From assembly GCA_900319995.1 (NCBI GenBank), contig ONQO01000017.1:1-32800 (forward strand): 32,800 bases of DNA, written 5' to 3'. The position numbers were made by a program, and so were the translations under genes. The stretch is from an uncultured Bacteroidales bacterium (GTDB lineage Bacteria > Bacteroidota > Bacteroidia > Bacteroidales > Paludibacteraceae). Within the stretch, counting starts at the first letter, position 1. Each line of letters starts with the position of its first letter. Shown here one piece after another: positions 1,415 to 29,343 of the stretch. The notes under the pieces are model-generated. The model had not been told where the DNA came from and made no database searches. It saw only the letters and a program-made list of their open reading frames with translations.

Positions 1415-1426
1415 GAGGAGATTGTT

Positions 1427-3958: not shown

Positions 3959-4970
3959 CTTCGTCTGCCTGTTTTAAGCGTTTCAGAACATCAGAGTTTT
4001 CTTCAAGAATCTGGTCAATATCTATAGATTTGTCGCCAATAAAACGATCGTACTCTTCAGGAGAAACGGCTCTCAGGTATTCTTCTATATTACTATGATA
4101 TGCATCTCTGAAACTCAAATCGCGTGATGCCATTTTAGCACGAGCATCATCCAAGTATGGCTTTTGCATCGGTGCTTCCGCAAGTTTCATGATTAATGTC
4201 TCCACTTCTTGTACCGTTAATTTGATATTTCCCTTTTCATTATAGGCATCGCGTATAGCAGCTCCTACACCATTCTCAAAGGAGGCGATTACAAGTAATA
4301 CCTCGGCATAGAGAGTATGGCGAACATTATCTTTACTATCTAATTTTAATATCTCGCGATATTCCTTTGCATTCTCTCTAAAGACAGCCTTGTATATAGC
4401 ATTAGTAACCTCTGAATACATGTTTGTTTCGTGTCCGTTTACATAAGCCCGCAAAGCTGATGTGAGTTGTTTACGATAATTGGTTTCTTTAATGGCAGTA
4501 GGCAAATAATTGGCATCGCGTCGATTAATATACTTGGTTCCTCCTCCGACTCTTTCATTAATCGTGGCAATCACAATATCCAAAATTATGCTACGTACCT
4601 GTTTAGCTTTTTCGCTTTCGGTAAGGAGCATACCAATATTAAGAAATGCACGGAAATTGAAAAGTCCTAATTGAGTCGTTTTGCTCGTCTCATTTATAAG
4701 ATGACCAAATTGTAACTTCAACTCTTTCAGCCGTTTACCCTTGCATAAAACATATCCGTTATACTTTAATTCATTTTCATATTCAGCTAAATATCTATTT
4801 ATGGTAGAAATATCTACTTCATAGAAATCTGCAACCATTTTTTTAGTAAAGCGATATTCGCCTTCAAACTCCATGCCTGTAATACCAAGATTATCCTGAA
4901 TTTTGGCTACTGCATATTTGTTGTTTAGAACATTTTGCCGTTCAATATTAGAAACAGTAAGATCATTCAT
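3945..4970 (-). CDS. RhuM-family DNA-binding protein paired with Doc
   Basis: A 341-residue cytoplasmic protein of the RhuM family. The N-terminus holds the typical segment: a degenerate start, then YRFTKKMVADFYEVDISTINRYLAEYENELKYNGY, which reads as a helix-turn-helix. This is followed by the conserved FNFRAFLNIGMLLTESEKAKQVRS stretch and a C-terminal half of helices rich in acidic residues. RhuM-like proteins often sit next to Fic/Doc proteins in mobile islands. The overlap with the doc-like gene supports a working pair in which this member could bind the operon promoter or restrain the toxin. The leader repeat at 5043-5112 lies just upstream. Exact biochemical role is unknown. Confidence 0.82.
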   Translation of the reverse strand: MNDLTVSNIERQNVLNNKYAVAKIQDNLGITGMEFEGEYRFTKKMVADFYEVDISTINRYLAEYENELKYNGYVLCKGKRLKELKLQFGHLINETSKTTQLGLFNFRAFLNIGMLLTESEKAKQVRSIILDIVIATINERVGGGTKYINRRDANYLPTAIKETNYRKQLTSALRAYVNGHETNMYSEVTNAIYKAVFRENAKEYREILKLDSKDNVRHTLYAEVLLVIASFENGVGAAIRDAYNEKGNIKLTVQEVETLIMKLAEAPMQKPYLDDARAKMASRDLSFRDAYHSNIEEYLRAVSPEEYDRFIGDKSIDIDQILEENSDVLKRLKQADEDGED

Positions 4971-5042: not shown

Positions 5043-5112
5043 GTGTTAAAAGATTCGTGTTTTATATACCCCTCCATATATAAGTCAAAAAAGAGTCCGA
5101 ATCTATCACCTT
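5043..5112 (-). repeat. Leader repeat, copy 2 (upstream of rhuM-like gene)
   Basis: This is the partner of 2762-2832, located between the end of the intact vsr and the rhuM-like start. On the minus strand it carries TTGACT, the GGAGGGG block and TATAAAA with about 16 bases between the outer boxes, like a sigma-70-type promoter rather than the Bacteroidota TAnnTTTG form. Confidence 0.7.
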
Positions 5113-5569
5113 AAAAGCAACTTTTTTTCATTTTTTTTGCAAGTGCTAGTAAATTGCGGTTGAGGGTGACGGCTACTTGCTGCATGGTGGGTTCTGTTTT
5201 GTCTTTGGTGAGGTTACATGCCCAGATGACGATTACCTGCCATCCGGCGTCAAGCAGTAACTGGTAGTTCTGTCTGTCCTGTTCGCGGTTACGGTCAATC
5301 TTCGCCTGCCAGAAAGGCGTGTTGGTCTTGGGCAGTACGAACTGTTTACATCCTTCGTGTCCGTGCCAGAAACAGCCGTTGACGAAAATCGCCGTTCTGT
5401 ATCTGCGCATCACTATATCCGGCTTGCCCGGCACGCTCTTCACATTAAGCCGGTATCTGTATCCGTGCGCCCACAGCCATTTCCGGACCGTTATCTCCGG
5501 CTTCGTCGCCTTGCTGCGGATATGTGACATGCAGCGGTGGCGTTGGGTAGGTGTCAGAACATCGGGCAT
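5111..5569 (-). CDS. vsr: Very short patch repair endonuclease Vsr
   Basis: A complete Vsr, 152 residues, matching the length of E. coli Vsr. Vsr nicks DNA 5' of the T in T:G mismatches that arise when 5-methylcytosine deaminates. Visible features are the N-terminal MSHIRSKATKPE motif, the metal-binding D51 in GKPDIVMRRYR, the zinc/active-site stretch GCFWHGHEGC (C66, H69, H71, C74) and the WQAKIDRN helix. Position 64, histidine in the E. coli enzyme, is asparagine here, which I believe is a common variant. The partner cytosine methyltransferase is probably the fused enzyme encoded at 8482-11505. The last residues (MKKSCF) come from sequence not shared with the broken copy. Confidence 0.93.
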   Translation of the reverse strand: MPDVLTPTQRHRCMSHIRSKATKPEITVRKWLWAHGYRYRLNVKSVPGKPDIVMRRYRTAIFVNGCFWHGHEGCKQFVLPKTNTPFWQAKIDRNREQDRQNYQLLLDAGWQVIVIWACNLTKDKTEPTMQQVAVTLNRNLLALAKKMKKSCF

Positions 5570-5656
5570 GGTATAGGGGTTTATTTAAATATTCGGCAAC
5601 TGTGACAATTTTAATTTATGTCTATATTGTTGAAATACAGTACAATGCGCGCTTAT

Positions 5657-5718
5657 TTCGTTTAAAGTTCGTTTAATATTCATTTATTTTTCGTTTACTT
5701 TTATTCAATCTAAACGAA
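5657..5718. promoter_or_regulatory. Phased TTCGTTTA repeats upstream of vsr
   Basis: TTCGTTTA occurs at 5657, 5668 and 5690, and its complement TAAACGAA at 5711. The spacings of 11, 22 and 21 bases put all four on nearly the same face of the helix. They lie in the gap before the intact vsr and could be binding sites for a regulator. No promoter box of the usual Bacteroidota type was found nearby. Confidence 0.5.
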
Positions 5719-5796
5719 CTATTAAGACAAAACCCATTCTTTTCCTTTGGCTACTTTGATTTTTCCAGCCAAGCGCAGGCTTGAGAGCAAACAGAA

Positions 5797-6366
5797 TTAT
5801 CGTTTGTTTAATTGCTCTATCAACCAATTGAATTCCTCGCCGTTTAGATTCTTACTTTGTATGTACCTCAGCGCATCCTCTGCTTTGTGCCATTTGTTTG
5901 TTTTTATCGGTTTCGGCTCATGTCCTTCTTTGGCAAACACGGACAAATCTATTTCTTTCTTCCAATTAGAGATAGTTCCATTCGAATTGATTTCAAGTTC
6001 TATATAATCGCCGTAATCTCCTTCTATCTCAAATGATGGAATAAGCCTGTTTGGGACATATCCGCAAATCTGCCAAATCGGCTTTTTCTCTGCATCTAAA
6101 AGCGTATATGTTCCGCTGTCCATCACTTTAGCCTGCATTCGCAAATACTCGTTATATTTATTCCATTCTACTAATCGACCCTCTTTGATGTCAATGGTCA
6201 TTTCTAACCGCATATCATCTGTATTCAGCATAGGTGGTACAAAATCTTCGTCACATTCCAACTCAGTCATTACACCATCATCGAAGGTGATTAAATTGTC
6301 TTCCGGATAGTACGGAATGGATATATGCACGTATTGTGTTTTGGATTTTAATTCATCGGTGGTCAT
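5797..6366 (-). CDS. Hypothetical protein, 189 aa
   Basis: I do not recognise a family. The protein is acidic and soluble, mostly predicted beta-strand in the first two thirds (TQYVHISIPYY, VMDSGTYTLLDAEKKPIW) and helical at the end (KAEDALRYIQSKNLNGEEFNWLIEQLNKR). It starts 6 bases after the stop of the deoxyribosyltransferase-like gene, so the two are one transcription unit. It may be an accessory or immunity-type protein of the island, but nothing in the sequence proves it. Confidence 0.7.
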   Translation of the reverse strand: MTTDELKSKTQYVHISIPYYPEDNLITFDDGVMTELECDEDFVPPMLNTDDMRLEMTIDIKEGRLVEWNKYNEYLRMQAKVMDSGTYTLLDAEKKPIWQICGYVPNRLIPSFEIEGDYGDYIELEINSNGTISNWKKEIDLSVFAKEGHEPKPIKTNKWHKAEDALRYIQSKNLNGEEFNWLIEQLNKR

Positions 6367-6372
6367 ATCTGT

Positions 6373-6801
6373 TTATCTTATTGTTTTTATCAACTCTCCC
6401 AAAGAAATGCAAACTTTTGTGAAGAGTTTGTACATCAGTTCGGGCTCAAAACTGTCTTTGTCCGGGATGTAGGCAAAGACTTTCTTTCCCTGTCCGGCAA
6501 ACCAACCGGCTTCTGTGTGTGCAGATCTTCCGCACGGCAATACCAGCACGCAAGCATCGCAAGCACTCATAGCATCAATATCGTTCTTGAACTGCCGCTC
6601 AGCTAACGGATGAGAGAGGTTGGCTTGGTACTTCGCAGGAGTCCAGTCCATGCAGTTCGGATCGACATCCGTCCAATGGAATCCGGGATCACCTGAAAGC
6701 GGATTGCGAAAGTCGTACACTTCATACCCCGCCTCCCGCAAGGCGGTTACCACTTCGGGATAATATGTGTTCCTCCAAGAGGATGCGATGTAGAGGTGCA
6801 T
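6373..6801 (-). CDS. Nucleoside 2-deoxyribosyltransferase-like protein
   Basis: A 142-residue Rossmann-like protein of the nucleoside 2-deoxyribosyltransferase family. It begins with the strand LYIASSWRN, followed by the YEVYDFRNP turn. The active-site region is near DACVLVLPCGRSAHTEAGW, where the glutamate in TEAG is the expected nucleophile. Family members move deoxyribose between bases or hydrolyse nucleotides, and similar genes are common in phages and mobile islands. Distant relatives (SLOG/DprA-like) also serve in defence as nucleotide sensors, so a role in nucleotide salvage or in signalling is open. It is cotranscribed with the hypothetical gene downstream. Confidence 0.78.
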   Translation of the reverse strand: MHLYIASSWRNTYYPEVVTALREAGYEVYDFRNPLSGDPGFHWTDVDPNCMDWTPAKYQANLSHPLAERQFKNDIDAMSACDACVLVLPCGRSAHTEAGWFAGQGKKVFAYIPDKDSFEPELMYKLFTKVCISLGELIKTIR

Positions 6802-6906
6802 TTATTGGCACTGCTCTATAGATAACTTTTTCAATGCCATAGTTTGCGTGACATGTCGCTTAATACTGAGGACTGTAGTATTAAGTGGTTCTTTCTAAGA
6901 AACAAT

Positions 6907-7275
6907 TTATAATGTCAAACCGGCATCAAAGTCTTGGAGATATTGAGGAGGAATTGTTTGCCGAATGGCTTGGATGTTTTGAGCAGTGCCAGTTACAAAA
7001 CTATGGTTAGCACGAATATTTTCAATAAATTCATTACAGTTAACTCGTGCAATAATATTGCCGACTCCAGCTGTTAAAGATACATTAAAAGGGTATGGTA
7101 ATGGTCGTAAAATCTGAATCCGACCTTCACTGGCCCATGCACCTTGTTCTTCATTATGTTCCCAAACCAAACTTGTGCTACCATCAGATTTTGCGAGGTA
7201 GCCTAAGAATTTGTAATACTCATGCTCGTTGGCAAATTGAACTTGTCCCGAAGTGCCAAAAGAAGATTTATACAT
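6907..7275 (-). CDS. Hypothetical protein next to the HNH nuclease
   Basis: A 122-residue protein with no family I can name. It is soluble, with short strands (SGQVQFANEHEYYKFLGYLAKSDGS, GRIQILRPLPYPFNV) and a conserved-looking acidic C-terminus. It starts 11 bases after the stop of the HNH nuclease, which in turn follows the methyltransferase by 4 bases, so it is the third gene of the modification-restriction unit. An accessory role, for instance in target recognition or in control of the nuclease, is inferred from position only. Confidence 0.68.
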   Translation of the reverse strand: MYKSSFGTSGQVQFANEHEYYKFLGYLAKSDGSTSLVWEHNEEQGAWASEGRIQILRPLPYPFNVSLTAGVGNIIARVNCNEFIENIRANHSFVTGTAQNIQAIRQTIPPQYLQDFDAGLTL

Positions 7276-7286
7276 AATTTTTTAAA

Positions 7287-8477
7287 TTAAATGTTGTTAT
7301 ATAGAAAACGTAACTGCGTTCGGATTTCCTCAAAGTTCAAAGACATACTCAAATCTTTGTTGAGACCGGTGTTTATTACTACGATGAAAGATTCTTTACG
7401 ATAATACTTGTCTCCATACATCCGCAAAGACTTTTCAATAGTATTAGATTTCGCGATTAAGCATACAAGTTGATAATCTCTGTTGATGACTTGGGTGTTG
7501 TTGCTAGGATGAGCCTTAGTATAGTGTTGTGTAGCTGTTAGCTTGATAAGATTCTCTAAATAATGCGCAATCTGTGGAAATTCTGATTTTGGGAATATAT
7601 GGTGTACCTGAGTCGCTTCTCCTTGTCCATATTGGTCATGCACTTCACTTTCAATTTGTATCTTACGAAGAAGGTTCATAGCTTTTGTTACTTGATATGC
7701 GTCATACTCCGCTTGTAGTCTTAATTCGTCATCCGAAGCTGCTTGGGTACGTGTTAGTGCTTTTGATTTATCAACATCACGCCAATTGATACGATTATAC
7801 ATCAAATCTGAAAAAGTAATTGCATATTTAGACTGGCGTCCCTTTTCTGTTCCCTGAATACCATGCTCACAACAATAAACATTGAATACTTTAGTGAAAA
7901 TACGACGCACCTCTACTTCGCCATTTATTTTTGTGTTTCCAATGATAAACCGTTCATACTTTTCTTTTAAATCTGCAAAATCATATTTGGTTGCTGCTCC
8001 CTGTTTTGCTTTTCTTCTGTAATCCTCAAATACTCGAAGAAAGTTACTATCTGCGAGTACTTTGGTAATATAGACATACAAAAAGTTATATGCGTTACGT
8101 TCTTTGGTCGCTACGTAATCAAGAATATCCCAATTAGCAACACTATAATAGTTAATATTACCTCGTTTCTCTATATCCAAAACATGGGCATATGCTAACA
8201 TACGCAATGGTTGTTGTATGAACTTATCATACTCACTATGTGCTGATTCTTCTTTAGGGTTGGGTTTCCCAAAGATAGCAGAGGCATTTTTTATAAAATA
8301 TGGCATGTCCCATACATCTTGCACCGTGAACTCACCTTGCGGATTCAAGTTCATTAAGCAGTCTGCAATGAAACACACTACATCTGGTGTGCACTTTTGA
8401 TCCATAAATCGTGCGTCTCCACTTTTGCGCACGTCCAAATCAAATTGATTTAGATACTTACTAATTTCCTGTATCAT
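7287..8477 (-). CDS. HNH restriction endonuclease (candidate)
   Basis: A 396-residue protein with an HNH nuclease core near its C-terminus: V-H292-H293-IFPKSEFP, N309 in ENLIKLTATQH, and H323 in KAHPSNN. This is the two-histidine plus asparagine pattern of HNH enzymes with the long ENLI-LTATQH extension often seen in restriction-type nucleases. The first 240 residues are unrecognised and may bind DNA. The gene begins 4 bases after the stop of the fused methyltransferase, which is strong support for a restriction-modification pair. Cleavage specificity cannot be read from the sequence. Because two base types are modified by the partner, an asymmetric site is expected. Confidence 0.85.
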   Translation of the reverse strand: MIQEISKYLNQFDLDVRKSGDARFMDQKCTPDVVCFIADCLMNLNPQGEFTVQDVWDMPYFIKNASAIFGKPNPKEESAHSEYDKFIQQPLRMLAYAHVLDIEKRGNINYYSVANWDILDYVATKERNAYNFLYVYITKVLADSNFLRVFEDYRRKAKQGAATKYDFADLKEKYERFIIGNTKINGEVEVRRIFTKVFNVYCCEHGIQGTEKGRQSKYAITFSDLMYNRINWRDVDKSKALTRTQAASDDELRLQAEYDAYQVTKAMNLLRKIQIESEVHDQYGQGEATQVHHIFPKSEFPQIAHYLENLIKLTATQHYTKAHPSNNTQVINRDYQLVCLIAKSNTIEKSLRMYGDKYYRKESFIVVINTGLNKDLSMSLNFEEIRTQLRFLYNNI

Positions 8478-8481
8478 AAAA

Positions 8482-11400
8482 CTACACTTTTAATTTACCA
8501 AAGAAGAATACTGAATTATTATCAATGTTTAGCGAACGAGTGCCACGATTCCTTGCTATTCCGTAGAACTTACAGAACTCATCAGTAGCATAGTATGCGA
8601 GGTCGTCAGCCGTAACTGTTTCATCGGGGATTGTTGTCAAGATAGCTACCGAACCATCAGCAATACAGTTTTGCGGCATAAAGCAAGCACGAGGATAATA
8701 TGTCAGATTAGGAACCAGAACACAATCTGTGCGATTCATATATTTTCCCACTTCTAAATTGCTGACATCATCAATGTATGTATCATAATCATCAATGTTA
8801 ATTATCTCGTTACTTCCAATGTTTCTGGACTTCAATACGCGTATTTTGCCTTGTTGTAATGTATTCGCTTTTGTTAACGTGCGGTCGCGAAAGGCTCTAA
8901 AAATGCCAAATCTCATCTTATTCGCGGCAGCATCAAAATCTTTATTGCGATAAATCAACCAATAGGGATATGCAGGATCTGTTATGTAATCCTGCTCATG
9001 TATCTCTATAGAATTAGTGATGTAAGACTCCACTTTCGTTAGCCCACGTTTGACTTTTTGGTTGATTGTGAACGCTATCGTTTCTATCTTTACACCCTTA
9101 AAGCCTTTTTCTCCAAAATCAATGATATTCGTGATAGGCAGTTTATTCATTAGGTTACGTGTGCCTCCAAACTCAGGAGCATTTATTAAACTCTTTGGTA
9201 CAATCAAAGAGACCACATCACCTATTTGCAGAGCTTTCTCAATAAAGAACGAGAAGATATTGCTTGTATCTGTATTCTCAACTGAAGACTTATATTTCTT
9301 TAATAGATCTTTGTCAGATACTTTCATATAAGGCGGATTGCCGACAACAATATCATAATGTTTATTGAAATTCTGTAACAAAGTGTCCTTATTAATAAAG
9401 TTCAGCCGTACGTTTTCCGGTTGTGGGATAGATTGCAAAATTTGTTTGAGTATAGCAATACTTTCCGGATTGATGTCAATTAGATCTATATGCAATTCCT
9501 CAACATTTGCGTACTTCTGGAAAAGTGACGGTAAAAAGTTTCCAACACCGGTTGCCGGTTCAAGAATATGCAGAATTTTATTGTCAGGGTAATCAGGCAG
9601 ATTTTTTACTACTGCATAGCAAATATCTTGACGGGTATAGTAAGCGGCAGTTTCAGTTCTTGCTCCATTGGCATATTCTGCAATTTTAGCCAAGCGTACA
9701 AAGCCTAATTTGCGGTGCTTCTTGATATATTGAAGTAATTTTTTACTATCAGTTAAGTCATTTTTTTTGATAATATCAAGCACCTCTTGTTCTGTTAACT
9801 CTGTATCAGCAAGCTTATCTTTTATTTTGTGTGCAATCTGCTGGAAAATGATGGTTGGAACCGCCTCTCCTAAACTTTGACGGATATTTACATCTTCTTT
9901 CTTTAGATATTTTTGTTTCTCTTCCAAGGGAAGTGCGTTTAATTGTTCATATGGGATCTCACTCCATTGGAATGATTGAGGAACGGACATCATCAGCATA
10001 ACCTCACGGATAGAGAAAACACGATTATCTGTTGGATGAACGGTGTTTTGACTAGCCAGAATGTCATTTCGCGTATGAACACAAGGAGCTACTTTATCCC
10101 AATATTGGCGCGTATATTTGTCTCCATTTTTACGTTGATTGAATACTATCTCTCCATCTTTTTCTTTGTGGGGTATTCTTGTCTCGTCCTCATTATCAAA
10201 AGCTGATTGCCCCTCGGTGATATTTTCAATCCATTCTAACATGTGGGGAGCATAGGGGCGGAAAGTGTGGTAAATGTCTTGATCCCATATTTCACCCATT
10301 TGATTTAAATGTGGAAGATGTCCTATTGTTTGACGCAAGGTTTGTTCTTCTTGTTTGTCCGGGAATAATTCAAGAGGGGTTATTTCTTTTTGATCTTTGC
10401 GCACACCAATAACAAGGGTTCGAGTTCGACTGCTGGGATTTCCATAATCCTTAAAGTTGAGAACTTTGGCTGCGATATTGTAGTCTCCTGCTAAATCTAA
10501 TTCGATAGCTTCCTTAATAGGTTTATCTACACCATCTATATCAGTGCATATAGATTTTAGGAAAGCTGAAACGTTCTCAAATACAAAGAATCGGGGATGC
10601 ATTGCGCGTATCATCTTTATGGATTCTACTACTAAAGAATTACGTTTCAATTCATCGCCTTTCTTGTGGTTGGCAACTGACATTCCTTGGCACGGCGGTG
10701 TTGCAATAACGACATCCAAATCGGTAAGACGATTCTGGCGTTGCCACATTTGTAATTCATCAAAAACTCGTTGTTGTGTTTCCGGCAGTGTGATATCACC
10801 ACAAATATAACCACTATCATACAAGCACTTATGATTGTATCGCTGAACATTCAAACGACGCTCTATAAGTTCTACCGTCGCTACACAATTGTAGTTCTCT
10901 TGTTTGAATCCATAACAGCCGACACCGGCACTACTAAACAAACTGATATATGTCAATTGGTTATTTTGTAATTGACGTTGTGGTTTTTGCGATTGTTGCA
11001 ACTCCTCTAAGGTTGTATCAGCATATGTTTGCCAGATATTTAAAGTATGCTTTTTGTAATCATTGAACAAATGCTTAACAAATTGCAATTCAAAAACGAT
11101 GCGCAGATCATTGGGGTCATTATCTAGTTCACCCTCACGGCGTGAACCAACGCGAGCAATCTTTATTAAATAAAGGTCACGAATACCATAATAATCAAGG
11201 TCACATTGCTTTCCAATGTACGGAATAAAGTAATACAACTTATTTAATGCAACCGTACTAGGGAAACGCTTGCCCGTATAGTAAATCTTAGCCGTCCCGT
11301 CCAAGAAGTGCTCTATATTGTCTTTCTTAACATTGCAAATTAGCACATTTTTAGACAAGTCTAAGTCCTCGAATCCATTTTCTGGTTCGTTCTGTACTAT

Positions 11401-11505
11401 TATTTCTGGAAATTGAGCTTGAACACTAAATAAGTCCAGTTCTGGAATCTGAGATTTATTTGTACTTCTTGACATAATTATCGTTATTTTTTCATTATAT
11501 AGCAA
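8482..11505 (-). CDS. Fused cytosine-C5 and adenine-N6 DNA methyltransferase
   Basis: One 1007-residue chain with two methyltransferases. Residues 1-180 are an unrecognised N-terminal region. Residues 185-565 form a cytosine-C5 enzyme: motif I LFSSAGVGCYGF (189-200), catalytic C272 in TPPCQG, FENV (309-312), SSRTRT (358-363) and motif X GEAVP (546-550). Residues 620-815 form an adenine-N6 enzyme with LEPATGVGNF (648-657) and the NPPY tetrad (723-726). The last 170 residues resemble a TaqI-type specificity region. Together they would protect both strands of an asymmetric site. The start could also be M11 at 11475. It is followed by the HNH nuclease gene. No frameshift or missing motif is seen, so both activities should be intact. 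Confidence 0.92.
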   Translation of the reverse strand: MLYNEKITIIMSRSTNKSQIPELDLFSVQAQFPEIIVQNEPENGFEDLDLSKNVLICNVKKDNIEHFLDGTAKIYYTGKRFPSTVALNKLYYFIPYIGKQCDLDYYGIRDLYLIKIARVGSRREGELDNDPNDLRIVFELQFVKHLFNDYKKHTLNIWQTYADTTLEELQQSQKPQRQLQNNQLTYISLFSSAGVGCYGFKQENYNCVATVELIERRLNVQRYNHKCLYDSGYICGDITLPETQQRVFDELQMWQRQNRLTDLDVVIATPPCQGMSVANHKKGDELKRNSLVVESIKMIRAMHPRFFVFENVSAFLKSICTDIDGVDKPIKEAIELDLAGDYNIAAKVLNFKDYGNPSSRTRTLVIGVRKDQKEITPLELFPDKQEEQTLRQTIGHLPHLNQMGEIWDQDIYHTFRPYAPHMLEWIENITEGQSAFDNEDETRIPHKEKDGEIVFNQRKNGDKYTRQYWDKVAPCVHTRNDILASQNTVHPTDNRVFSIREVMLMMSVPQSFQWSEIPYEQLNALPLEEKQKYLKKEDVNIRQSLGEAVPTIIFQQIAHKIKDKLADTELTEQEVLDIIKKNDLTDSKKLLQYIKKHRKLGFVRLAKIAEYANGARTETAAYYTRQDICYAVVKNLPDYPDNKILHILEPATGVGNFLPSLFQKYANVEELHIDLIDINPESIAILKQILQSIPQPENVRLNFINKDTLLQNFNKHYDIVVGNPPYMKVSDKDLLKKYKSSVENTDTSNIFSFFIEKALQIGDVVSLIVPKSLINAPEFGGTRNLMNKLPITNIIDFGEKGFKGVKIETIAFTINQKVKRGLTKVESYITNSIEIHEQDYITDPAYPYWLIYRNKDFDAAANKMRFGIFRAFRDRTLTKANTLQQGKIRVLKSRNIGSNEIINIDDYDTYIDDVSNLEVGKYMNRTDCVLVPNLTYYPRACFMPQNCIADGSVAILTTIPDETVTADDLAYYATDEFCKFYGIARNRGTRSLNIDNNSVFFFGKLKV

Positions 11506-11577
11506 GTATTTTACAATATATGATTTATCGTAGATCTCGCCAAAAATGATTTCCTATATGTGCAGTATGATAGCACT

Positions 11578-12594
11578 TTATTTTTCGATACTAAAGAACA
11601 ACTTATAATAATACATGTTTTTAGATTCATCAAATCCTCGTTCTATGAAACTTCCCGTCTTATATAAGTGAAGTTCTGCCGTGTCATCTAATTTTATGCA
11701 GCGTGTTGCTTTATGAATGTTTATTGCTTTTTTGTCTATTTCAAATTGATCAGCGATACTATTTCCAGTTTTTGACTCATATTCTTCTTTGTATTCTAAA
11801 AATAATTTTTCATATTCTTTATCTTGAAAAACTAATTTAGAAATTTCTGTCAAGTTCGCTTCTTCTGCATTTAGTAGAATTTCATTACATCTATTGATAA
11901 TGTGTACCTGTTCTGACTTAGGTAGTTGATTTTCTTTACCTAATTTGTTAACGACAAAATCAGTGAAAACTTCAATTATATTATGTGAATTATTATAGCT
12001 ATTGTTACAGGGGATAACGCCTAGGAAATCATCTTTCCAAAATTTAGTATCTTTGCTGTTGTCAATTATGAGCACCTTAGGTGTGTGTTCTGTAAAGATT
12101 ACCAAACAGGCTTTGTCAATTTTATTAGCAGAAAATCCTTTTTTAATGTTAATGTGTAACTCTCCCTGAGGATCAATAGTTGTTTCGATAAATTCTTTTT
12201 TCGTCTCTATTTTGACTATGCCGATTCCTTCGTAGTAGGTGTTGTTGATAAGAATATCTTCTACTTTTACAATGAATACATCTCCATCCTTTATTGTTGG
12301 TGATGTGGATATCGCTTGTAAATGTTTGAACAAGGACACAGAACTTTGTGAAAACTCTGCACCTTGAAACATACTTAATATTATTTGATAGGCAACATTA
12401 TATCTAATATCTACATGATGCGAGAATGCAAACTCGTTTTTTTTATTGACAAACGGTTTCAAGAAAAACTCTTTAAGGATTTCCTGATTCTCATCTTGCA
12501 GATTCATTTCTGCATTATTAACTATACATTTTGTTACATCACTACTAAAATGATGACAGATAACTCTATCTATCAACGCATCTTTGATATTCAT
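11578..12594 (-). CDS. NdpA/YejK-like nucleoid-associated protein
   Basis: A 338-residue cytoplasmic protein that fits the 37-kDa nucleoid-associated protein family (NdpA/YejK). Signatures are the short basic N-terminus with an early pair of helices, the strand block GDVFIVKVEDILINNTYYEGIGIVKIE, the stretch GFSANKIDKACLVIF, and FWKDDFLGVIPCNNSYNNSHN followed by the helix FTDFVVNKLGKENQLPKSEQ. Members bind DNA non-specifically. The gene follows the membrane protein gene with a single base between them, and 72 bases separate it from the methyltransferase start, so the group may read through. A role in an anti-phage system is inference from neighbours. Confidence 0.8.
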   Translation of the reverse strand: MNIKDALIDRVICHHFSSDVTKCIVNNAEMNLQDENQEILKEFFLKPFVNKKNEFAFSHHVDIRYNVAYQIILSMFQGAEFSQSSVSLFKHLQAISTSPTIKDGDVFIVKVEDILINNTYYEGIGIVKIETKKEFIETTIDPQGELHINIKKGFSANKIDKACLVIFTEHTPKVLIIDNSKDTKFWKDDFLGVIPCNNSYNNSHNIIEVFTDFVVNKLGKENQLPKSEQVHIINRCNEILLNAEEANLTEISKLVFQDKEYEKLFLEYKEEYESKTGNSIADQFEIDKKAINIHKATRCIKLDDTAELHLYKTGSFIERGFDESKNMYYYKLFFSIEK

Positions 12595-12595
12595 A

Positions 12596-13243
12596 TTACA
12601 TTTTCCTTTTTAAAATTATTACCGATACAAGACTACTTGTCGCATATGATGTATAAAAAAATATTTTAAGCATGAGATACAAAACGACTATGCGATAAAT
12701 AATCATACTCCAAAAATAAAATCCCATCAGAATACTATTGAGAGATAATTGAGAAATATTATCAATAATAGTATATTCTGATATGTTTAAAGAGAATGCA
12801 TCAAACCATAATATGTTTGGTAATAGCATAAATAAGACTATTGTAGAAAATAGAATGTTCAATCCTAATGTATAGAAGAATCGAACAGTATAGTTGTTCT
12901 CTTGTAGTATGTTAATTTTTTGCTTCTGAGTTAGCCTCTCGTTTGCAGGTTTAGCATTTTCTTCTTCCTGCGATGGTAATTTTATCGGTTTTAATTTATC
13001 TTCGACAAAGACTAAAACAGTTATAAAGAAACCTACAAATATGGAAAGAATACTTGTGGCATAATCCAAAAATCCATTGGAAAAACCATTTGGAATTCCC
13101 CATACAAATAACAGTGTAATTATGATAAATATTGTATATGAAATCCAAATATTTTTTATGTCTTCCCCGTTTATGTCTTTCTTTAAGACATTACGACTTT
13201 TGGCAAAAAATAGTTGTATAATATCAATCCACTCTTTTAACAT
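12596..13243 (-). CDS. Four-helix membrane protein of the three-gene operon
   Basis: A 215-residue protein with four predicted membrane helices: IWISYTIFIIITLLFVWGI, YATSILSIFVGFFITVLVFV, FFYTLGLNILFSTIVLFML and FYFWSMIIYRIVVLYLMLKI. A charged cytoplasmic loop with QEEENAKPANERLTQKQKIN separates helices 2 and 3, and the N-terminus has a soluble helix (KEWIDIIQLFFAKSRNVLKK). No family is recognised. Its start overlaps the preceding gene by 20 bases and its stop is one base from the next start, so all three are translated together. The pattern of a small four-helix protein beside a cytoplasmic DNA-binding protein recalls Kiwa in layout, but homology is not claimed. Confidence 0.72.
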   Translation of the reverse strand: MLKEWIDIIQLFFAKSRNVLKKDINGEDIKNIWISYTIFIIITLLFVWGIPNGFSNGFLDYATSILSIFVGFFITVLVFVEDKLKPIKLPSQEEENAKPANERLTQKQKINILQENNYTVRFFYTLGLNILFSTIVLFMLLPNILWFDAFSLNISEYTIIDNISQLSLNSILMGFYFWSMIIYRIVVLYLMLKIFFYTSYATSSLVSVIILKRKM

Positions 13244-14264
13244 TATTCTCTATTCTTAATTCTGGCAATATTGTGTTTTCAAATAGATTATTGCAGAATG
13301 TTGCTAAACTTGTAAAATCAGGCGTTCCGTCTTCATTAAATCTAATCATCTCATCTGTTAAATATACGACAGGTGCGAATTCTGCTTCTCTAGTATTCCA
13401 TTTAAATACTTTTGTTGATTTCATTTCATCGTTTTTAGCCTTAACTTCACAATTCTCAAATTGTTCTAAAGTATGATGATTCTCTTTATCTCCAAACATC
13501 TTAGGGATGAAATGTGCTCTAAATCGTTCTGCCCATGTCATGCTAATATTATGATCTTTCTTCGGCGTAACGACGATAGACACATCGTATTCTGCTAATT
13601 CTTCCTTTATGGGATTATCTTCTTCAAATCTATCTCCGACTATAGTTTTCTTAAATGTCAAAGAAGTTAAGCGAGCATCTTCTCTGAATTTTTCTTGAAT
13701 GGCTTTTGGCGCAAAAATAATCATTTCGGGTTTGAGATAATTATCTTGTTTGAAAAGATCTGCTATGTATTTCCTGGCAAAATTAGAAATGCTTTCTTGT
13801 GCAGAATCCGTATGTAACATAAAGAATCCTTCTGAACTATCAAGAGGGAAGTATGCAAAAATGTAGTAATACTGTAATACGGGTTGGGTCTGACGTATGT
13901 TATCTGATTCGATTTTGTTAATCAAATTGGTTACTATTCGTTCTTTCCCATACGCGCCTCCATTAACAACCCCAGAAATAATATATTTGTCGTTTTGAGG
14001 TTTTGGGCGCATCTCCCAATACTTATTAATAGTCCTTCCTGTCGGATTCTTTATAATAGTGATGCATTTCTTTTGTCGATCATTTTTGGCAAAACCATTT
14101 ATAAGGCTAGCCATAAAATAATTATATAATTTTGAAAAAATCACATCATCTGTATCAGTATTTTTGCACCTCTTTGTTTCCAACATAAATTCGCGGAATG
14201 TTTTTGAATCCTCACTTTTGTGTTTGAGGGAGAAACGGAAGAATTCTAATTTCGGATATGACAT
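13224..14264 (-). CDS. Unknown protein, first gene of the three-gene operon
   Basis: A 346-residue soluble protein I cannot assign. The first third is helical and basic (FREFMLETKRCKNTDTDD). A central block of strands, LQYYYIFAYFPLDSSEGFFM, is followed by a helix pair (SISNFARKYIADLFKQDNYL) and a strand, PEMIIFAPK. The last part contains SIVVTPKKDHNISMTW and FAPVVYLTDEMIRF. No signal peptide or membrane segment is present, and no nuclease or ATPase motif stands out. It lies about 45 bases after a canonical promoter at 14314-14345 and overlaps the membrane protein gene by 20 bases. Its unusual AT content matches the next two genes and not the flanks. Confidence 0.7.
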   Translation of the reverse strand: MSYPKLEFFRFSLKHKSEDSKTFREFMLETKRCKNTDTDDVIFSKLYNYFMASLINGFAKNDRQKKCITIIKNPTGRTINKYWEMRPKPQNDKYIISGVVNGGAYGKERIVTNLINKIESDNIRQTQPVLQYYYIFAYFPLDSSEGFFMLHTDSAQESISNFARKYIADLFKQDNYLKPEMIIFAPKAIQEKFREDARLTSLTFKKTIVGDRFEEDNPIKEELAEYDVSIVVTPKKDHNISMTWAERFRAHFIPKMFGDKENHHTLEQFENCEVKAKNDEMKSTKVFKWNTREAEFAPVVYLTDEMIRFNEDGTPDFTSLATFCNNLFENTILPELRIENNVKRVD

Positions 14265-14313
14265 AGTAGTATAAAATTAAAGTTAAACAATAAGCTCATT
14301 CTAATTTCGCCTG

Positions 14314-14345
14314 CAAAGGTACAACTTTTTTTTGATATATGCAAG
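14314..14345 (-). promoter_or_regulatory. Bacteroidota-type promoter of the three-gene operon
   Basis: On the minus strand TACCTTTG (14321-14314) lies exactly 20 bases after CTTG (14345-14342). This fits the TTTG / TAnnTTTG promoter of Bacteroidota. Transcription would start near 14307, giving a 40-base leader to the start codon at 14264. Confidence 0.75.
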
Positions 14346-16368: not shown

Positions 16369-19300
16369 TTATTTTACACGCTGGCCTCGGGCGTTGAAGA
16401 CAGCGCCGTCGGGCGTGATGATATAGAGCACACCGTCACGGAGCACCTTGATACTTTGTACTTGGTCACTTGGTACTTCCCCTATTCCTTCTCCAGCGAC
16501 CTTGAAGAGTGCGGTGTAACTTGCATCGCCGGTGACCACCACGGTACGCGGGTTGTCGGTGTTCTCGTCGGACCACTTGACGAACTCATATCCTGCCGCA
16601 GGCACGGCTACAAGGGTGATGGTTGAGCCCTCGTCATAGACGCCTCCGCCGTTGACGGAACCACCCTCTGCCGGCTCTGCCGTCACGGTGATGGTGTAGG
16701 TCGGTTTCTCTATCACTTTCTCGGTGAAGATAGCGGTAAAGGTGGCATCGCCGGTCACGGTCACTACACGCGGGTTGGCTGCCACGCCGTCCGACCAGAC
16801 GGAGAACTGGAAGCCCTCTGCCGGAGTGGCGGTGAGCGTTGCCATCTCGCCTTCCTTATACTCGCCTCCGCCGCTGACGCTACCCTTCTCCGGGTCAAGG
16901 CTGACAGCGGTAATGGTGTAGGTCTTCTTGTAGTTCGGGTCGGTATCGAAGACTGCGCTGATTTTGTATATGTACTCGGCTGACGGGTCGAACGGACGGA
17001 AGGTGTAGCCGTCCCATACATTCTCCTCGTTGAAGGTCATCTCGCCCGTCTCCGGGTCCATACCCATCATGGTGCGCTGGATAAGATTCTTGATGTCGAG
17101 AGTCAGCTTGACAGTCGCATTGGTCGTGTTGTTGCTCCAGCCTTTGAAGACGAATCCTTCGTCCGCTGTAGCGGTGAGAGTAATCTCCTCTCCGAGCTTG
17201 TGCATGCTGCCTCCCTCTACGTTAACGACACCGCCGCCGTTATGCGAAACCTCAACCGCTACGTCTATTGCACGGAGCCGGCAAACGGCTTTCAGGTTCT
17301 CGTCGTGCTGCGGTTGCTCGGTCGGCTCCGTACCGCCGCCACCGCTGCTGTAGCGGTAGAGCTGTACAGGCTGCTGGTTGTTGTAACTCGTCGATTTGAA
17401 GAAGCGGAAACGCAGCTGGTCTTGGGCCTTGTTGAAACGCAGGTGTGCACCGGAAGCGGCGATGATGTCGATACCGCCGTCGGCACCCATAGCCAGTGTC
17501 AGAGGTTCGCCCATTGTGGTGGACACGTTCAGCTTGTTAGCGTCCGAGTTGACGTTGATATACTCGCCCATCGAGTTATGGATAGCCCATCCGGTGCCGT
17601 TCGGCTCGATGGTAAATTCGGCGGACGGGTTCATATCTGAGGTCATGTCGCCCATCAGGGTCACGGTCATGTAGTTATTGGCTGCATCCATGTTCGCGAG
17701 CGAGCCGTCCAGCACTTTCATCATCGACAGGTCATCCGGGTCCTCGTAACCGATATAATAGGTGCCGGACCAGTCCACAGTGTCAGCTGTCACTTTGTAG
17801 TAACCGGGCATACCCATTCCGCCGCCCATGTCACCGCCCATGCCGGGCATGTAACGGATGTAGAACGAGCACTTGGCAGGATCCTCTGGGTCCATCATCG
17901 GCTGGTCGGCTACGCCGTCCGCCCATTGCCATTCCTTGAACTCATACCAGTCGTTGGTGATATGCGCTCTGAGGACAGCCTGCTCCTCGTTGATGAAACG
18001 CTGGTCGTTGCGGTCATGGCCGTATTCGTTGGTTGCCTCGATATAGCCCGCCTCTTCCGGCACCATGGCAAAATGCTGCTGGTGGAAATCGGACGGGAAG
18101 GCACTGAACGCACCTATGAACCAGAAGTTCCACTCGTTGAGGTCGAAGGTGCGCGGGTTCTCCGTCGATCCGTCTATCTTCCAGTACTGGAACGCAGCGC
18201 CGTCTGCAGGGATGGCTTTCAGTGTCACCGTACCGTCGCAGCTCAGCGGAGAGGTAATCTCTATCCGGCTGTTGGTGGACCAGAAATCCGTGCCCATCAC
18301 GTCGCGGCCTAACAGCTCGTCCAGATAGGTCTGGGTGAACTTGGACTCGGAGTTCTCAATCGTCGCGCAGACGGCTTTCCACGTAGCGTTATTATATATA
18401 TCATTATAATTCGCGCACGTAGCGACAATCTTCTTGACCGAACATCCGGAGAAGGCGGAGTTGCCCGGCGTGCAGACGGAGCCGGTGAGGTTGATGGTTG
18501 CTAACGATGCGCAGTTGGCAAACGCATTGGCATTGATAGACTTGATGTTGTTGAAGGTCACCTCCTTGAGTCCGGCTCCTGCGAACGAATACAGGTCGAA
18601 GGTCTCCAAGCCTTTATAGACGAACTTGTCGATAGCGGCTGCGTTGGCGAACATATATTTCGGAGCGGTCTTGACGGACGCCGGCATATAGAGTGCCTTG
18701 ACGGCTGTTCCGGCGAAAGGTCCGTTCTCCGGTTTGGTGACGGAAGCGGACTGCACTTCGGCGTTGTAGCAGACGAAGGCGACCGAGTCGATGGTACAGT
18801 TCTTGAAGGCATTGGCGCCGATGGTCTTCACGCTGGTGGGGAACTCCAAGAGTTTGAGGGAGGCACCTGTCAGCAGCTGACGCGGTACAAGGGTCACCTC
18901 GTCACCCAAGTTGAACTTGGTGATCTGTTTGCCGATGGTCTCGTCGAAGGGACCGGCGTAGGCGTACGATTTAGCCTCCCAGTTGACGGTCTTGAGGGCG
19001 GTACAGCCTTTGAAGACATCGGTGTAGATGGTGGTCACGTTCACGGGGATGGTGACGGTAGCCAGTTTCTTGCAGTTCATGAAGGCGTTATCCTCTATCT
19101 TCATCAGCGCGGAGCATTTGGTGCCGGCTTCGGTGATGAGTGTGTTCTTGAACGCATTCTTGCCGATGGCGGTCAGTTTGGTGAGGTTAACGGGGTTGGT
19201 GCCCGACAAGTCGGCGTTCTCAAACACACTCTCGCCGAACGTCTTCGCATTAGTGAGGGTGATGTATTTGAGTTTGGTGCAGTCATGGAAAGCATGGTTG

Positions 19301-21042
19301 CCGTATTTCTCCACGCTTGTCGCCCAGTTGACCGTCTCTACGCCCTTGAAACTATAGAAGAGCGAGTCGGGAATCTCGGTCACAGAGGTGCCTAAGTCGA
19401 TAGAGGTGATGCGTCCGCGATAGGACGATCCGCTCGATTCGGTGGTGAGGAACAGGTTGGCATAGCTTCCGCCTGCGTTGGCACGAGACAGACTCTTGCC
19501 GTACAGATACGAGATAGAGGTCAGTTTGGACTGGTAGCCGCCCGCAATCTCCTTGCCTAATTTGAGGGTCCAAGAGGAGTTCGGGATGACCAGTTCGGTG
19601 ATGCCCGTCGAGTAGAAGGCATGCGTGCCAATCTCGGAGATATTGGTGTTGTACGATTTCAGACCCGTCGTCAGCGCGTAGCACTGGAAGAAAGCATATT
19701 CGCCTATTTTATACGTCTTGGAGGGGAAACCCGTTGCGCCGTTGGTGGTGATGGTCTTGAGGGCAGAACATTTCTGGAAAGCGTAGCGGTCAATCTCCGT
19801 ATTGTAGTTGTCAATACCGTCCTCGAAGTTAACGGTCTCCAGCGCGGTACACTCGGCGAAAGCGGACTGGCCGATCTTACCGCCGGTGTTGGCAGGAATG
19901 GAGATATTCTTGATGGCTTTGAGTCCTGCGCATATATATGCAGGCACGGAGCAACCGGCAGCTGTGCTCTCGAACTTGAAGGTGGTAATCTTGTCCGCCG
20001 ATGAGCGGAAGATAGACATGTTGGATGATGTGATGCCCGGGTCTCCGCCGCGCCAATAGACGGTGTTGATGGCGGAGCTGTTATAGAACGCATTGCCGTC
20101 CACCTTGCCGCCGATGGATACGTACGTCAGCTTCGGACAGGCGGAGAAGGCATATTTGCCGATCGTGGTGTTGTATATGCTGGCGTAAGCCCAGATGTCA
20201 TCGGGCATCACGACGGAAGCGAGGTTCTGAAGATTGCAGAAATAGTAGTCCGGCACCGAACCGTATAAGATGACGCCGACCAAGCTGTACCGCTGAGTAT
20301 AGAAGGGGGAGTAGGTCTCGCTGGTGATAGAAGCGGAACCGCCTAACCATGTAACGAAGTGGATTCCCTTACAGTCGTTGAACGCTTTTTGGTGGATGTC
20401 GGAACCACCGCAGACGATTGCAGGAATCTCATAACAGTTACCGAAAGCGTATTCGCCGATCTTGTGCGTTACATTCGCGCCGCCGTTCTTGACAATCTCG
20501 CCGCACTCAACAATCATATTCAGTTTGATACAATTGAGGAACGCTTTGTCCGCTATGTCGCCGAACTTGACGTACGAAAACGAGGTGGGATTGGCACCGC
20601 TTGCCAGCGTACCGGTGCACCAGCGGAGACTCAGCAGAGACTGGCTCGAATAGAAAGCGTACTCGTCCACCTTGAGGTAAGAGGGTAACTCGCCAAACGA
20701 GTAGGCAAAGACGATGTTCTCATGGAGAGACTCCTTGAATACATGGTCGCCGATTTCGGTTAGACGGAAGACCTTGGTGGAGCCGCTGTAGGTATGCTGG
20801 AAAGCAGCGGGCACAAAGAGGTTCTTGTACGCGAGCCCCTTTAGGTCCACGGCGGTCAGTTTGCACTCGCCCGGAGTGGAGCCCGAAGGCAGTTTGGTCA
20901 CCTGATAACTAAAGGAGACGGTTTGCTGTCCCACTGAAACAAATCCTGCGGAACCGAACGTATCACCCACCTTGGTGATCGTTGCCGCTTGCAGGCCGAT
21001 AGCAGCTATCAGCACTGCAAAGAGAGATAAAATCTTTCTCAT
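16369..21042 (-). CDS. BspA-like leucine-rich-repeat surface protein 1
   Basis: A 1557-residue secreted protein. The signal peptide is MRKILSLFAVLIAAIGLQA. Residues about 30-890 are BspA/LRR_5 repeats (units such as IGEYAFFQC, LKTITTNGA, SVKTIGANAFKNC). A shared module beginning YLDELLGRDV follows at about 890-1010, then an acidic glycine/methionine-rich part. Two or three InlB/Listeria-Bacteroides-type repeats (GGSVNGGGVYDEGSTITLVA, GYEFVKWSDENTDNPR) cover about 1270-1510. The tail ends VLRDGVLYIITPDGAVFNA and GQRVK, which resembles a sorting tail for the type IX or a related outer-membrane route. Such proteins usually mediate adhesion to host or to other bacteria. It is the last gene after the regulator and its paralogue. 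Confidence 0.9.
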   Translation of the reverse strand: MRKILSLFAVLIAAIGLQAATITKVGDTFGSAGFVSVGQQTVSFSYQVTKLPSGSTPGECKLTAVDLKGLAYKNLFVPAAFQHTYSGSTKVFRLTEIGDHVFKESLHENIVFAYSFGELPSYLKVDEYAFYSSQSLLSLRWCTGTLASGANPTSFSYVKFGDIADKAFLNCIKLNMIVECGEIVKNGGANVTHKIGEYAFGNCYEIPAIVCGGSDIHQKAFNDCKGIHFVTWLGGSASITSETYSPFYTQRYSLVGVILYGSVPDYYFCNLQNLASVVMPDDIWAYASIYNTTIGKYAFSACPKLTYVSIGGKVDGNAFYNSSAINTVYWRGGDPGITSSNMSIFRSSADKITTFKFESTAAGCSVPAYICAGLKAIKNISIPANTGGKIGQSAFAECTALETVNFEDGIDNYNTEIDRYAFQKCSALKTITTNGATGFPSKTYKIGEYAFFQCYALTTGLKSYNTNISEIGTHAFYSTGITELVIPNSSWTLKLGKEIAGGYQSKLTSISYLYGKSLSRANAGGSYANLFLTTESSGSSYRGRITSIDLGTSVTEIPDSLFYSFKGVETVNWATSVEKYGNHAFHDCTKLKYITLTNAKTFGESVFENADLSGTNPVNLTKLTAIGKNAFKNTLITEAGTKCSALMKIEDNAFMNCKKLATVTIPVNVTTIYTDVFKGCTALKTVNWEAKSYAYAGPFDETIGKQITKFNLGDEVTLVPRQLLTGASLKLLEFPTSVKTIGANAFKNCTIDSVAFVCYNAEVQSASVTKPENGPFAGTAVKALYMPASVKTAPKYMFANAAAIDKFVYKGLETFDLYSFAGAGLKEVTFNNIKSINANAFANCASLATINLTGSVCTPGNSAFSGCSVKKIVATCANYNDIYNNATWKAVCATIENSESKFTQTYLDELLGRDVMGTDFWSTNSRIEITSPLSCDGTVTLKAIPADGAAFQYWKIDGSTENPRTFDLNEWNFWFIGAFSAFPSDFHQQHFAMVPEEAGYIEATNEYGHDRNDQRFINEEQAVLRAHITNDWYEFKEWQWADGVADQPMMDPEDPAKCSFYIRYMPGMGGDMGGGMGMPGYYKVTADTVDWSGTYYIGYEDPDDLSMMKVLDGSLANMDAANNYMTVTLMGDMTSDMNPSAEFTIEPNGTGWAIHNSMGEYINVNSDANKLNVSTTMGEPLTLAMGADGGIDIIAASGAHLRFNKAQDQLRFRFFKSTSYNNQQPVQLYRYSSGGGGTEPTEQPQHDENLKAVCRLRAIDVAVEVSHNGGGVVNVEGGSMHKLGEEITLTATADEGFVFKGWSNNTTNATVKLTLDIKNLIQRTMMGMDPETGEMTFNEENVWDGYTFRPFDPSAEYIYKISAVFDTDPNYKKTYTITAVSLDPEKGSVSGGGEYKEGEMATLTATPAEGFQFSVWSDGVAANPRVVTVTGDATFTAIFTEKVIEKPTYTITVTAEPAEGGSVNGGGVYDEGSTITLVAVPAAGYEFVKWSDENTDNPRTVVVTGDASYTALFKVAGEGIGEVPSDQVQSIKVLRDGVLYIITPDGAVFNARGQRVK

Positions 21043-21097
21043 GTCATTTTTAATTTTAGTTGTTTTAATATAATAGTTTATTGTTATATGTAATGCA

Positions 21098-21154
21098 TTC
21101 GGATTATTCGGATAAACTCGGATTAATTCCGATTAACTCCGATAATCTCCGATT
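21098..21154. repeat. TCGGA/TCCGA repeat array between the BspA-like genes
   Basis: Six short units, three of the TCGGATTA kind followed by three of the inverse TCCGATTA kind, spaced by about 10-12 bases, make an imperfect palindrome of some 57 bases. It sits just upstream of the conserved hairpin on the plus strand, i.e. between the hairpin and the start of BspA-like gene 1. Confidence 0.6.
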
Positions 21155-21160
21155 CCTTGT

Positions 21161-21190
21161 GATAGTACGGCAACCCAATGCCGTACTACC
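21161..21190. terminator. Conserved hairpin after BspA-like gene 2
   Basis: The same stem and loop as at 16300-16329, with one mismatch near the base, 5 bases beyond the stop codon of BspA-like gene 2. Its recurrence after both paralogues suggests copying together with the gene ends. Confidence 0.65.
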
Positions 21191-21194
21191 GATA

Positions 21195-29187: not shown

Positions 29188-29343
29188 ATGGACGACTATC
29201 GTTTTACAAATATTGATCAAGAGCCGACCGATGAGCAGTTGTCTCAACTCATGCGCGAGGTGGCAGAAGATGCAAAAGAACGCTATGAAAAAGCGCGTAA
29301 TGCCTATTTTGCACAACTCACCCAAATGGTTCAGGCCATATGA
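29188..29343 (+). CDS. Small acidic helical protein, likely antitoxin
   Basis: A 51-codon frame that starts 29 bases after a perfect promoter and ends in an ATGA overlap with the zeta-like gene. It begins MDDYRFTNIDQEPTDEQLSQ and continues as a single charged helix (MREVAEDAKERYEKARNAYF). Size, acidity, helicity and the overlap fit the small antitoxin member of a type II pair. No DNA-binding motif is seen, so control of the operon by this protein alone is uncertain. The product is not a family I can name; the antitoxin role is inference. Confidence 0.75.
   Translation: MDDYRFTNIDQEPTDEQLSQLMREVAEDAKERYEKARNAYFAQLTQMVQAI

Follow-up and report, generated by a model that had tools for sequence, protein, structure and literature searches.

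In a 32,800-nucleotide stretch of DNA from an uncultured Bacteroidales bacterium (GenBank assembly GCA_900319995.1, contig ONQO01000017.1; hereafter the window, meaning the whole stretch), we find a cassette of three minus-strand genes, P1, MEM and NDP, which probably constitutes a Rex-like abortive-infection system, with P1 as the sensor and MEM as the channel, that carries an NA37 protein as an added component. The genes had been picked out from the sequence alone, in an original prediction that proposed an undescribed defence system. This proposal stands in so far as the cassette is conserved, linked to defence genes and has no convincing match in the version of PADLOC-DB searched, but not in so far as P1 and MEM are related to, or resemble, the Sbash, CarolAnn and RexAB proteins. 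The elements of the cassette are as follows:

13224..14264, minus strand: P1, soluble protein of 346 amino acids, remote homologue of Sbash gp30 / CarolAnn gp44, proposed infection sensor
12596..13243, minus strand: MEM, protein of 215 amino acids with four transmembrane helices (hydropathy), proposed RexB-like channel/effector
11578..12594, minus strand: NDP, protein of 338 amino acids, divergent NA37/YejK nucleoid-associated protein, proposed DNA-binding third component
14314..14344, minus strand: Bacteroidota-type promoter (-33 TTG, N20, -7 TAccTTTG), exact motif match

The layout is as originally described. All three open reading frames (ORFs) are present and tightly joined, with an overlap of 20 bases between P1 and MEM and a gap of one base between MEM and NDP, MEM has four hydrophobic helices, and the cassette is AT-rich, its GC content of 30.9% comparing with 44.4% for the window and being as low in 10 of 603 sliding windows of equal length. 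The promoter motif lies 80 bases 5' of the P1 ATG and perfectly matches TTG-N20-TAnnTTTG, which we take to be the Bacteroidota -33/-7 promoter consensus; it occurs eight times in the window compared with 0.52 expected by shuffling, and 0/100 shuffles reach eight. The 250 bases preceding 12 other copies of P1 contained no such motif, and the promoter is therefore not a conserved feature of the cassette.

Profile comparison makes P1 a remote homologue of the cytoplasmic protein of the phage Sbash and CarolAnn systems, which are validated abortive-infection systems; this places the first protein of the cassette with a known kind of system. Our Sbash-family alignment consists of Sbash gp30, CarolAnn gp44, a Rhodococcus protein and Sejanus gp46, the last of which is annotated as a RexA family abortive infection protein. 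Compared with a 14-row P1 profile in hhalign, it gave 71% (E 3.7e-5, score 43.9, 193 columns); reversed profiles scored 13.5 and 13.3, and 200 column shuffles reached at most 20.2, with 0/200 reaching 43.9. Taken singly, the Sbash-family proteins scored 27.2-31.6 against P1, and 184 other ORFs of similar length scored at most 24.6. A hidden Markov model (HMM) of the Sbash family (built without P1; 217 proteins) found, after its own members, only P1 proteins down to E 0.031, amounting to 13 entries from 11 distinct loci with window P1 at 0.0026; a DUF4747 protein followed at 0.07, and then more P1 proteins. Conversely, the P1 HMM found its own 18 entries and then all four Sbash-family proteins (E 0.0013-0.081), with the first unrelated ORF at 0.38. 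Direct BLASTP matches to Sejanus gp46, in a small set, were seen for the P1 proteins of two loci, L012 (E 7.3e-5) and L030 (0.003; loci are cited by our L numbers throughout). The common core of the two families surrounds GG..G and P.D...G motifs at P1 residues ~94-178.

Window P1 has no convincing match in Pfam, NCBIfam, PHROGs or PDB sequences (five other P1 proteins were also scanned), so that the earlier statement that the first protein matches nothing holds for these collections, but fails for remote relatives, which are those of the Sbash/CarolAnn type. Its single weak PADLOC match, to PbeD (E 0.0017), was dropped, as it was not repeated in five relatives. That P1 is a divergent NA37 paralogue was rejected, and its identity as a DUF4747 protein is not supported: window P1 and five others have no PF15931 match, and profile comparison gave 0.2%.

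The second protein shares the membrane topology of the Sbash/CarolAnn membrane partners, with weak sequence support. The hydropathy scan found four hydrophobic helices in 15/16 MEM homologues and three in L029, where the first helix was missed. Positive charge is concentrated in the N-terminus and the 42-residue middle loop of MEM, and we therefore predict an N-in/C-in orientation with a cytoplasmic middle loop, the same topology as that of Sbash gp31. Segment lengths agree with those of Sbash gp31, Butters gp31 and the partners of DUF4747 proteins. Scans of MEM gave no convincing Pfam, NCBIfam, PADLOC-DB, PHROGs or PDB-sequence match (five other MEM proteins were also scanned). In a search of 232 ORFs, the Sbash gp31 HMM placed Butters gp31 at E 0.0023 and two MEM proteins at 0.011 and 0.039, followed by an unrelated ORF at 0.058.

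Like the cassette, Sbash gp30/gp31 and CarolAnn gp44/gp43 consist of a soluble protein followed by an overlapping four-helix membrane protein, and this layout is tied to abortive infection in Sbash, CarolAnn, Butters gp30/gp31 and lambda RexAB (PMC6426596, PMC6426606, PMC7542560; these and all other papers are cited from excerpts). Lambda and Pseudomonas putida RexAB also share the two-component logic and the four-helix partner, although lambda RexA and RexB have no detectable sequence similarity to P1 and MEM, respectively, and P. putida RexAB is likened by description only. The Sbash and CarolAnn systems are prophage-borne two-gene systems of Actinobacteria, whereas P1-MEM-NDP occurs in what are probably Bacteroidota genomes, often among restriction genes and, in 11/16 loci, with the third NA37 gene. 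A similar two-gene layout is formed by DUF4747 proteins, which had a four-helix protein next to them in 8/8 loci that turned up in 300 genomes from the bacterial family of the window; however, neither the P1 and DUF4747 profiles nor the membrane proteins align. DUF4747/CarolAnn operons are listed among the immune operons downstream of CapKS in a 2026 paper (PMC13373217).

P1 and MEM stay together in every locus counted with a complete P1. A P1 search of the 300 genomes found seven with P1, five of them full-length including the window's own, and one further locus came from searching 395 genomes of the phylum (the window's own included) with a profile. A pattern scan of an 84,980-species collection gave 13 P1 loci, for which 12/13 named genome records carry a metagenome-assembly or uncultured label, and a single viral-contig scan out of three added one locus. 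No match was returned by an earlier genome-contig scan with window P1 alone as the query, by the other two viral-contig scans, or by tblastn of P1 in plasmid and phage records, of which the phage set was queried with the L013 copy only. We count 16 loci, all with full-length P1, after merging into L026 both L010 (the same place) and L025 (99.96% identical, from another assembly). Outside this count are L006, L014 and L032, which have only the first 27 P1 residues, L007 and L015, where the match contains stop codons, and L031, where P1 is shortened to 146 amino acids and tblastn finds neither MEM nor NDP. The L031 fragment (1354-1794, plus strand), on a contig labelled Limnohabitans, directly follows an Eco57I-type methyltransferase and is either a decayed copy or a binning error.

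MEM is the gene directly after P1 in 16/16 loci, and the two overlap by 4-29 bases in 15/16, by exactly 20 in five. The P1 relatives are 20-47% identical to window P1. NDP is third in 11/16 loci, comprising 11/12 of the closest (the exception being L029) and 0/4 of the distant ones (L011, L012, L013 and L018). Since this gene order is kept in other genomes, the unit is not a chance arrangement. Moreover, the distance matrices of P1, MEM and NDP correlate, with r 0.91-0.95 for 11 loci and 0.80-0.90 for the eight that remain after the closer relatives L023, L024 and L030 are removed (permutation p <=0.0006). Two pairs of loci show the cassette as a piece. L021 and L023 share 91.7% DNA identity only over 9842-12627, of which position 12627 is the last base of the NDP stop codon, and their upstream genes differ: L021 has a MutH-type endonuclease and a C5 methyltransferase, and L023 has a DUF1016 nuclease and two genes which by protein starts and order (unscanned) resemble the N6-methyltransferase/HSDR_N and specificity genes of L022. 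Similarly, the identity between L026 and L030 (83.6%) is confined to the cassette, starting 59 bases ahead of P1 and ending 79 bases short of the NDP stop codon. Because identity is limited to the cassette while the neighbours differ, recombination or selection appears to treat the three genes as one piece, and judged by these comparisons P1-MEM-NDP is a true unit and an exchangeable cassette.

The third protein, NDP, is a divergent NA37/YejK protein, as had been predicted, an assignment made through its cassette relatives and tblastn. PF04245 (NA37) is found in 8/11 cassette NDPs at E <=0.1 (best 1.9e-26); window NDP is among the 3/11 without it and has no Pfam family match at E 0.1. With window NDP as the query, tblastn found four plasmid records at 25.5-31.2% identity, three of them annotated as nucleoid-associated protein. 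A sequence search of solved structures gave nothing convincing for P1, MEM, NDP or the NA37 protein of L008. The cassette NDPs group together as a single clade (100/99), apart from the 17 other NA37 proteins, in a tree of 28 sequences that comprised the 11 NDPs, 13 of the family's 22 remaining full-length copies, and two copies each from plasmids and phages; the tree carried a long-branch warning for L009 and the phage rows. The NA37 copy that lies beside DUF4747 (L048, the same gene as in L072) falls outside the cassette clade, and NA37 has therefore probably joined a soluble-plus-four-helix pair twice. NA37 as such is more widely distributed, being present in 26/300 genomes of the family (24 full-length); while P1 and MEM occur together in all 16 loci, only 2/24 full-length NA37 genes lie within the P1-MEM-NDP cassette. 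Together with the match of P1 to a known kind of system, this goes halfway towards the outcome that the original prediction had named as refuting it. The other 22 were viewed with wider flanks in seven cases and in short flanks, where they appear to stand alone, in the remaining 15.

An NA37 protein could alternatively serve as a transcriptional regulator in a toxin-antitoxin or mobile-element maintenance unit, as NdpA2 does in regulating the transfer genes of a Pseudomonas integrative element (PMC8565334), and L028 (Bacteroides sp. 51) lies near genes that look mobilisation-related by sequence (unscanned). We regard this as highly improbable for the cassette, in which NDP occupies the final position and has distances that parallel those of P1 and MEM. 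In addition, the excerpt on CarolAnn describes proteins that are each non-toxic alone, toxicity requiring a phage protein in their presence (PMC6426606).

The original prediction likened the layout to Kiwa, which, like the cassette, has a small membrane protein beside a DNA-binding protein. Under such a scheme MEM would sense phage attachment and the DNA-binding NDP, with or without P1, would clamp the phage genome without killing the cell; Kiwa itself acts by membrane sensing and DNA clamping of this kind (PMC12904381), and a four-helix membrane protein plus a nucleoid-type protein would suit it. The likeness did not survive comparison with KwaB and KwaA alignments, built from five and four genomes, respectively: hhalign gave ~0.1% for P1-KwaB, MEM-KwaA and NDP-KwaB, compared with 98% for a positive control of two P1 branches, and P1, MEM and NDP have no profile similarity to the alignments tested. 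PF16162 (KwaB) was not among the Pfam matches at E<1 of window P1 and NDP or of five other P1 proteins. The helices are also spaced differently: the first begins after 4-6 residues in four KwaA proteins and after about 26-39 in MEM (L029 aside), and its distance to the second is 16-33 residues in KwaA and 7-12 in MEM. This comparison is partial, the scan having recovered just three helices per KwaA. Kiwa furthermore has two genes with the membrane gene first, P1-MEM occurs without NDP in 5/16 loci, and P1 is homologous to a different known system. We thus consider a Kiwa-like mechanism unlikely. A weak KwaB match in L034/L036 (22.4 bits) was judged to be chance by the genes around it.

The cassette sits in a restriction island, as had also been noted, in which the following genes are its neighbours:

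8482..11505, minus strand: fused C5-cytosine/Eco57I-type methyltransferase, neighbour outside the cassette (PF00145 1.9e-39, PF07669 6.9e-17; PADLOC MTase_II)
7287..8477, minus strand: type II restriction endonuclease of the neighbouring system (PADLOC REase_II 5.7e-103)
5111-5569, minus strand: Vsr mismatch endonuclease near the C5 methyltransferase system (1.8e-32)

An adjacent same-strand restriction-modification gene is present in 8/16 loci (window, L011, L013, L021, L022, L023, L024 and L027), of which L024 is counted from its 97.9% DNA identity to L022 and L023 from its likeness to L022 (both unscanned). In 3/6 survey genomes the pair has a methyltransferase gene no more than 6 kb away, compared with 0.18 expected from the density of such genes (p 0.0004); this distance was picked after the loci had been seen, and methyltransferase counts and fragments were merged by hand. 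Other neighbours were also recognised. A SEFIR protein lies downstream in L018 and an HNH_5 protein upstream in L012; RhuM genes lie downstream in L022 and L028; and in L026 the opposite strand carries an adenosine-deaminase protein that matches RdrB (E 1.5e-31), together with a KAP NTPase with no PADLOC family match; we read the two as a putative RADAR-type pair. No defence neighbour was recognised in L019, L020, L029 and L030, most of whose neighbours are unscanned.

This association raises the alternative that the genes are an accessory of restriction-modification, sensing restriction products or damaged self DNA, or controlling the restriction enzyme, and not independently antiphage. Same-strand restriction-type genes do lie closely upstream, by 2 bases in L027, 5 in L022 and L024 and 20 in L023, and the L013 pair is placed between HsdR and HsdS, with MEM and HsdS overlapping by 4 bases. 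In the window, the methyltransferase follows NDP on the same strand after 72 bases, and since no promoter motif of the searched Bacteroidota type lies between the two genes, read-through is possible. However, the cassette or pair occurs beside unrelated restriction types (I, II and Eco57I-type), has its own promoter motif in the window, and has no recognised adjoining restriction gene in L012, L018, L019, L020, L026, L028, L029 and L030, some of whose neighbours are unscanned. On balance we find a purely accessory function improbable.

We therefore favour a Rex-like mechanism. P1 would act as a cytoplasmic sensor and MEM as a four-helix inner-membrane protein that stays closed until P1 opens it by way of its cytoplasmic middle loop; opening would cost the cell its membrane potential and ATP, and infection would abort. 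That P1 should sense and MEM act follows from the homology to the Sbash/CarolAnn proteins. Sbash loses its defence with two substitutions in gp31's cytoplasmic middle loop, and the authors of that study propose channel opening as their model (PMC6426596). Sbash gp30 and CarolAnn gp44 form dimers and, like RexA, show non-specific DNA binding (PMC11077077). From such relatives we infer that channel activity, DNA binding and abortive infection may also be properties of the cassette. NDP would most likely detect or hold phage DNA or replication structures and thereby control when P1 fires; its place in the same operon and in one clade suggests that it tunes sensing through DNA. Protection of E. 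coli against phage is reported for a YejK-domain system (PMC13092281), which may be related to the cassette. Within restriction-modification operons, the cassette might serve as a backup for cases in which restriction fails. Both this backup logic and the specific role of NDP are purely conjectural.

Several observations speak against the proposed mechanism or parts of it. The hhalign match of P1 to the Sbash family depends on the rows used, falling to 11.2% (E 0.0027) with the 12 closest P1 proteins alone and to 41.5% with the L012/L013 pair alone. P1 has no detectable sequence similarity to lambda RexA, Butters gp30 or DUF4747, and kinship with the wider Rex family is thus argued from layout. 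MEM matched Sbash gp31 weakly in hhalign (score 19.4, E 0.037, reversed control 17.4), and the Sbash partners were not in the first 16 outside matches of the MEM HMM. In the Butters system protection needs no more than the soluble protein and is weakened by its membrane partner (PMC7542560), and the roles can therefore differ from those of a P1 sensor and a MEM effector. As for the third component, NDP is absent in 5/16 loci and therefore dispensable for the P1-MEM pair, it is net acidic (41 K+R, 52 D+E), and Pseudomonas NdpA2 alone gave no shift in one published electrophoretic mobility shift assay (PMC8565334).

A broader reading, which we hold only tentatively and think somewhat doubtful, is that NA37 serves broadly as an interchangeable DNA-sensing module in suicide systems of the membrane- or nucleotide-acting kind, the cassette being a three-component Rex in which the undecided DNA trigger would be read by a separate protein, NDP. 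In gene runs of the bacterial family, NA37 comes third while the middle gene varies, encoding a four-helix protein, a RelA/SpoT protein (L073) or a protein of 398-514 amino acids (L070, L071, L075 and L076). In the last four, the 398-514-amino-acid gene and a gene of ~350 amino acids (a 401-amino-acid ORF in L071) precede NA37; L073 has an NA37-like gene and the RelA/SpoT gene with NA37, and L074 has large unscanned genes. The first gene clearly resembles NA37 in L070, L071 and L073 (BLASTP 6e-7 and 5e-7; for L073, Pfam 1.5e-5 over part of the gene); in L075 the likeness is weak, and in L076 none was shown. As a profile these first genes matched the cassette NDPs at only 4.6%.

Some of these runs are of interest in their own right. 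In L073 (701-3720, minus strand) the RelA/SpoT gene lies between the NA37-like and NA37 genes and the run adjoins restriction-looking genes; it could be a nucleotide-synthetase defence or toxin cassette. In L070 (4131-10892, minus strand) an NA37-like gene, a 510-amino-acid gene and NA37 are followed by ATPase-like and helicase-like genes that, named from sequence starts and sizes only, appear to be of Gabija-like build. Among the eight DUF4747 genomes NA37 is present in only one, L072, there after the DUF4747 and four-helix pair: the run (5641-10026, plus strand) encodes DUF4747, a four-helix protein and NA37, then a PtuA-type ATPase and lastly an unscanned protein judged HNH-like from its cysteines, so that a Rex-like layout with NA37 is joined to a Septu-like pair. 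NA37 genes are also carried by the Polaribacter phages Danklef and Freya and the Tenacibaculum phage Gundel (L068, L069); neither P1 nor MEM was recognised next to the gene in the two records inspected, and the phage protein could be a decoy or the phage's own nucleoid factor.

If the cassette is a Rex-like system, the Sbash/CarolAnn type would reach beyond actinobacteriophages into Bacteroidota genomes; the cassette places this type in restriction-modification operons, tied to a dedicated nucleoid-type protein, a component that known Rex versions are not reported to have. According to the excerpt of a 2026 paper, only five RexAB-like systems have been described, and RexA activation is proposed but not demonstrated (PMC12894663). 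Among the matches listed in searches of an open-licence library, no title or abstract opening describes the three-gene cassette. Because natural versions exist with NDP (11) and without it (L029), the contribution of DNA sensing to Rex-type activation is directly testable.

Further features of the window lie outside the cassette and its adjoining restriction genes. Two adjacent genes match PDC-M59A and PDC-M59B, and the island therefore holds a second candidate defence system (3494-4970); the remaining entries lie between the restriction genes or farther away:

3945-4970, minus strand: PDC-M59A, PADLOC candidate system PDC-M59 (E 2.9e-184)
3494-3958, minus strand: PDC-M59B (E 1e-62), adjoining PDC-M59A
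6373-6801, minus strand: nucleoside 2-deoxyribosyltransferase-like protein (PF05014, 8.9e-08), between the Vsr and restriction genes
16369-24515, minus strand: two BspA-type leucine-rich-repeat proteins of 1557 and 1106 amino acids, with InlB-type repeats
29340-29936, plus strand: zeta-toxin-like kinase (8.4e-13)

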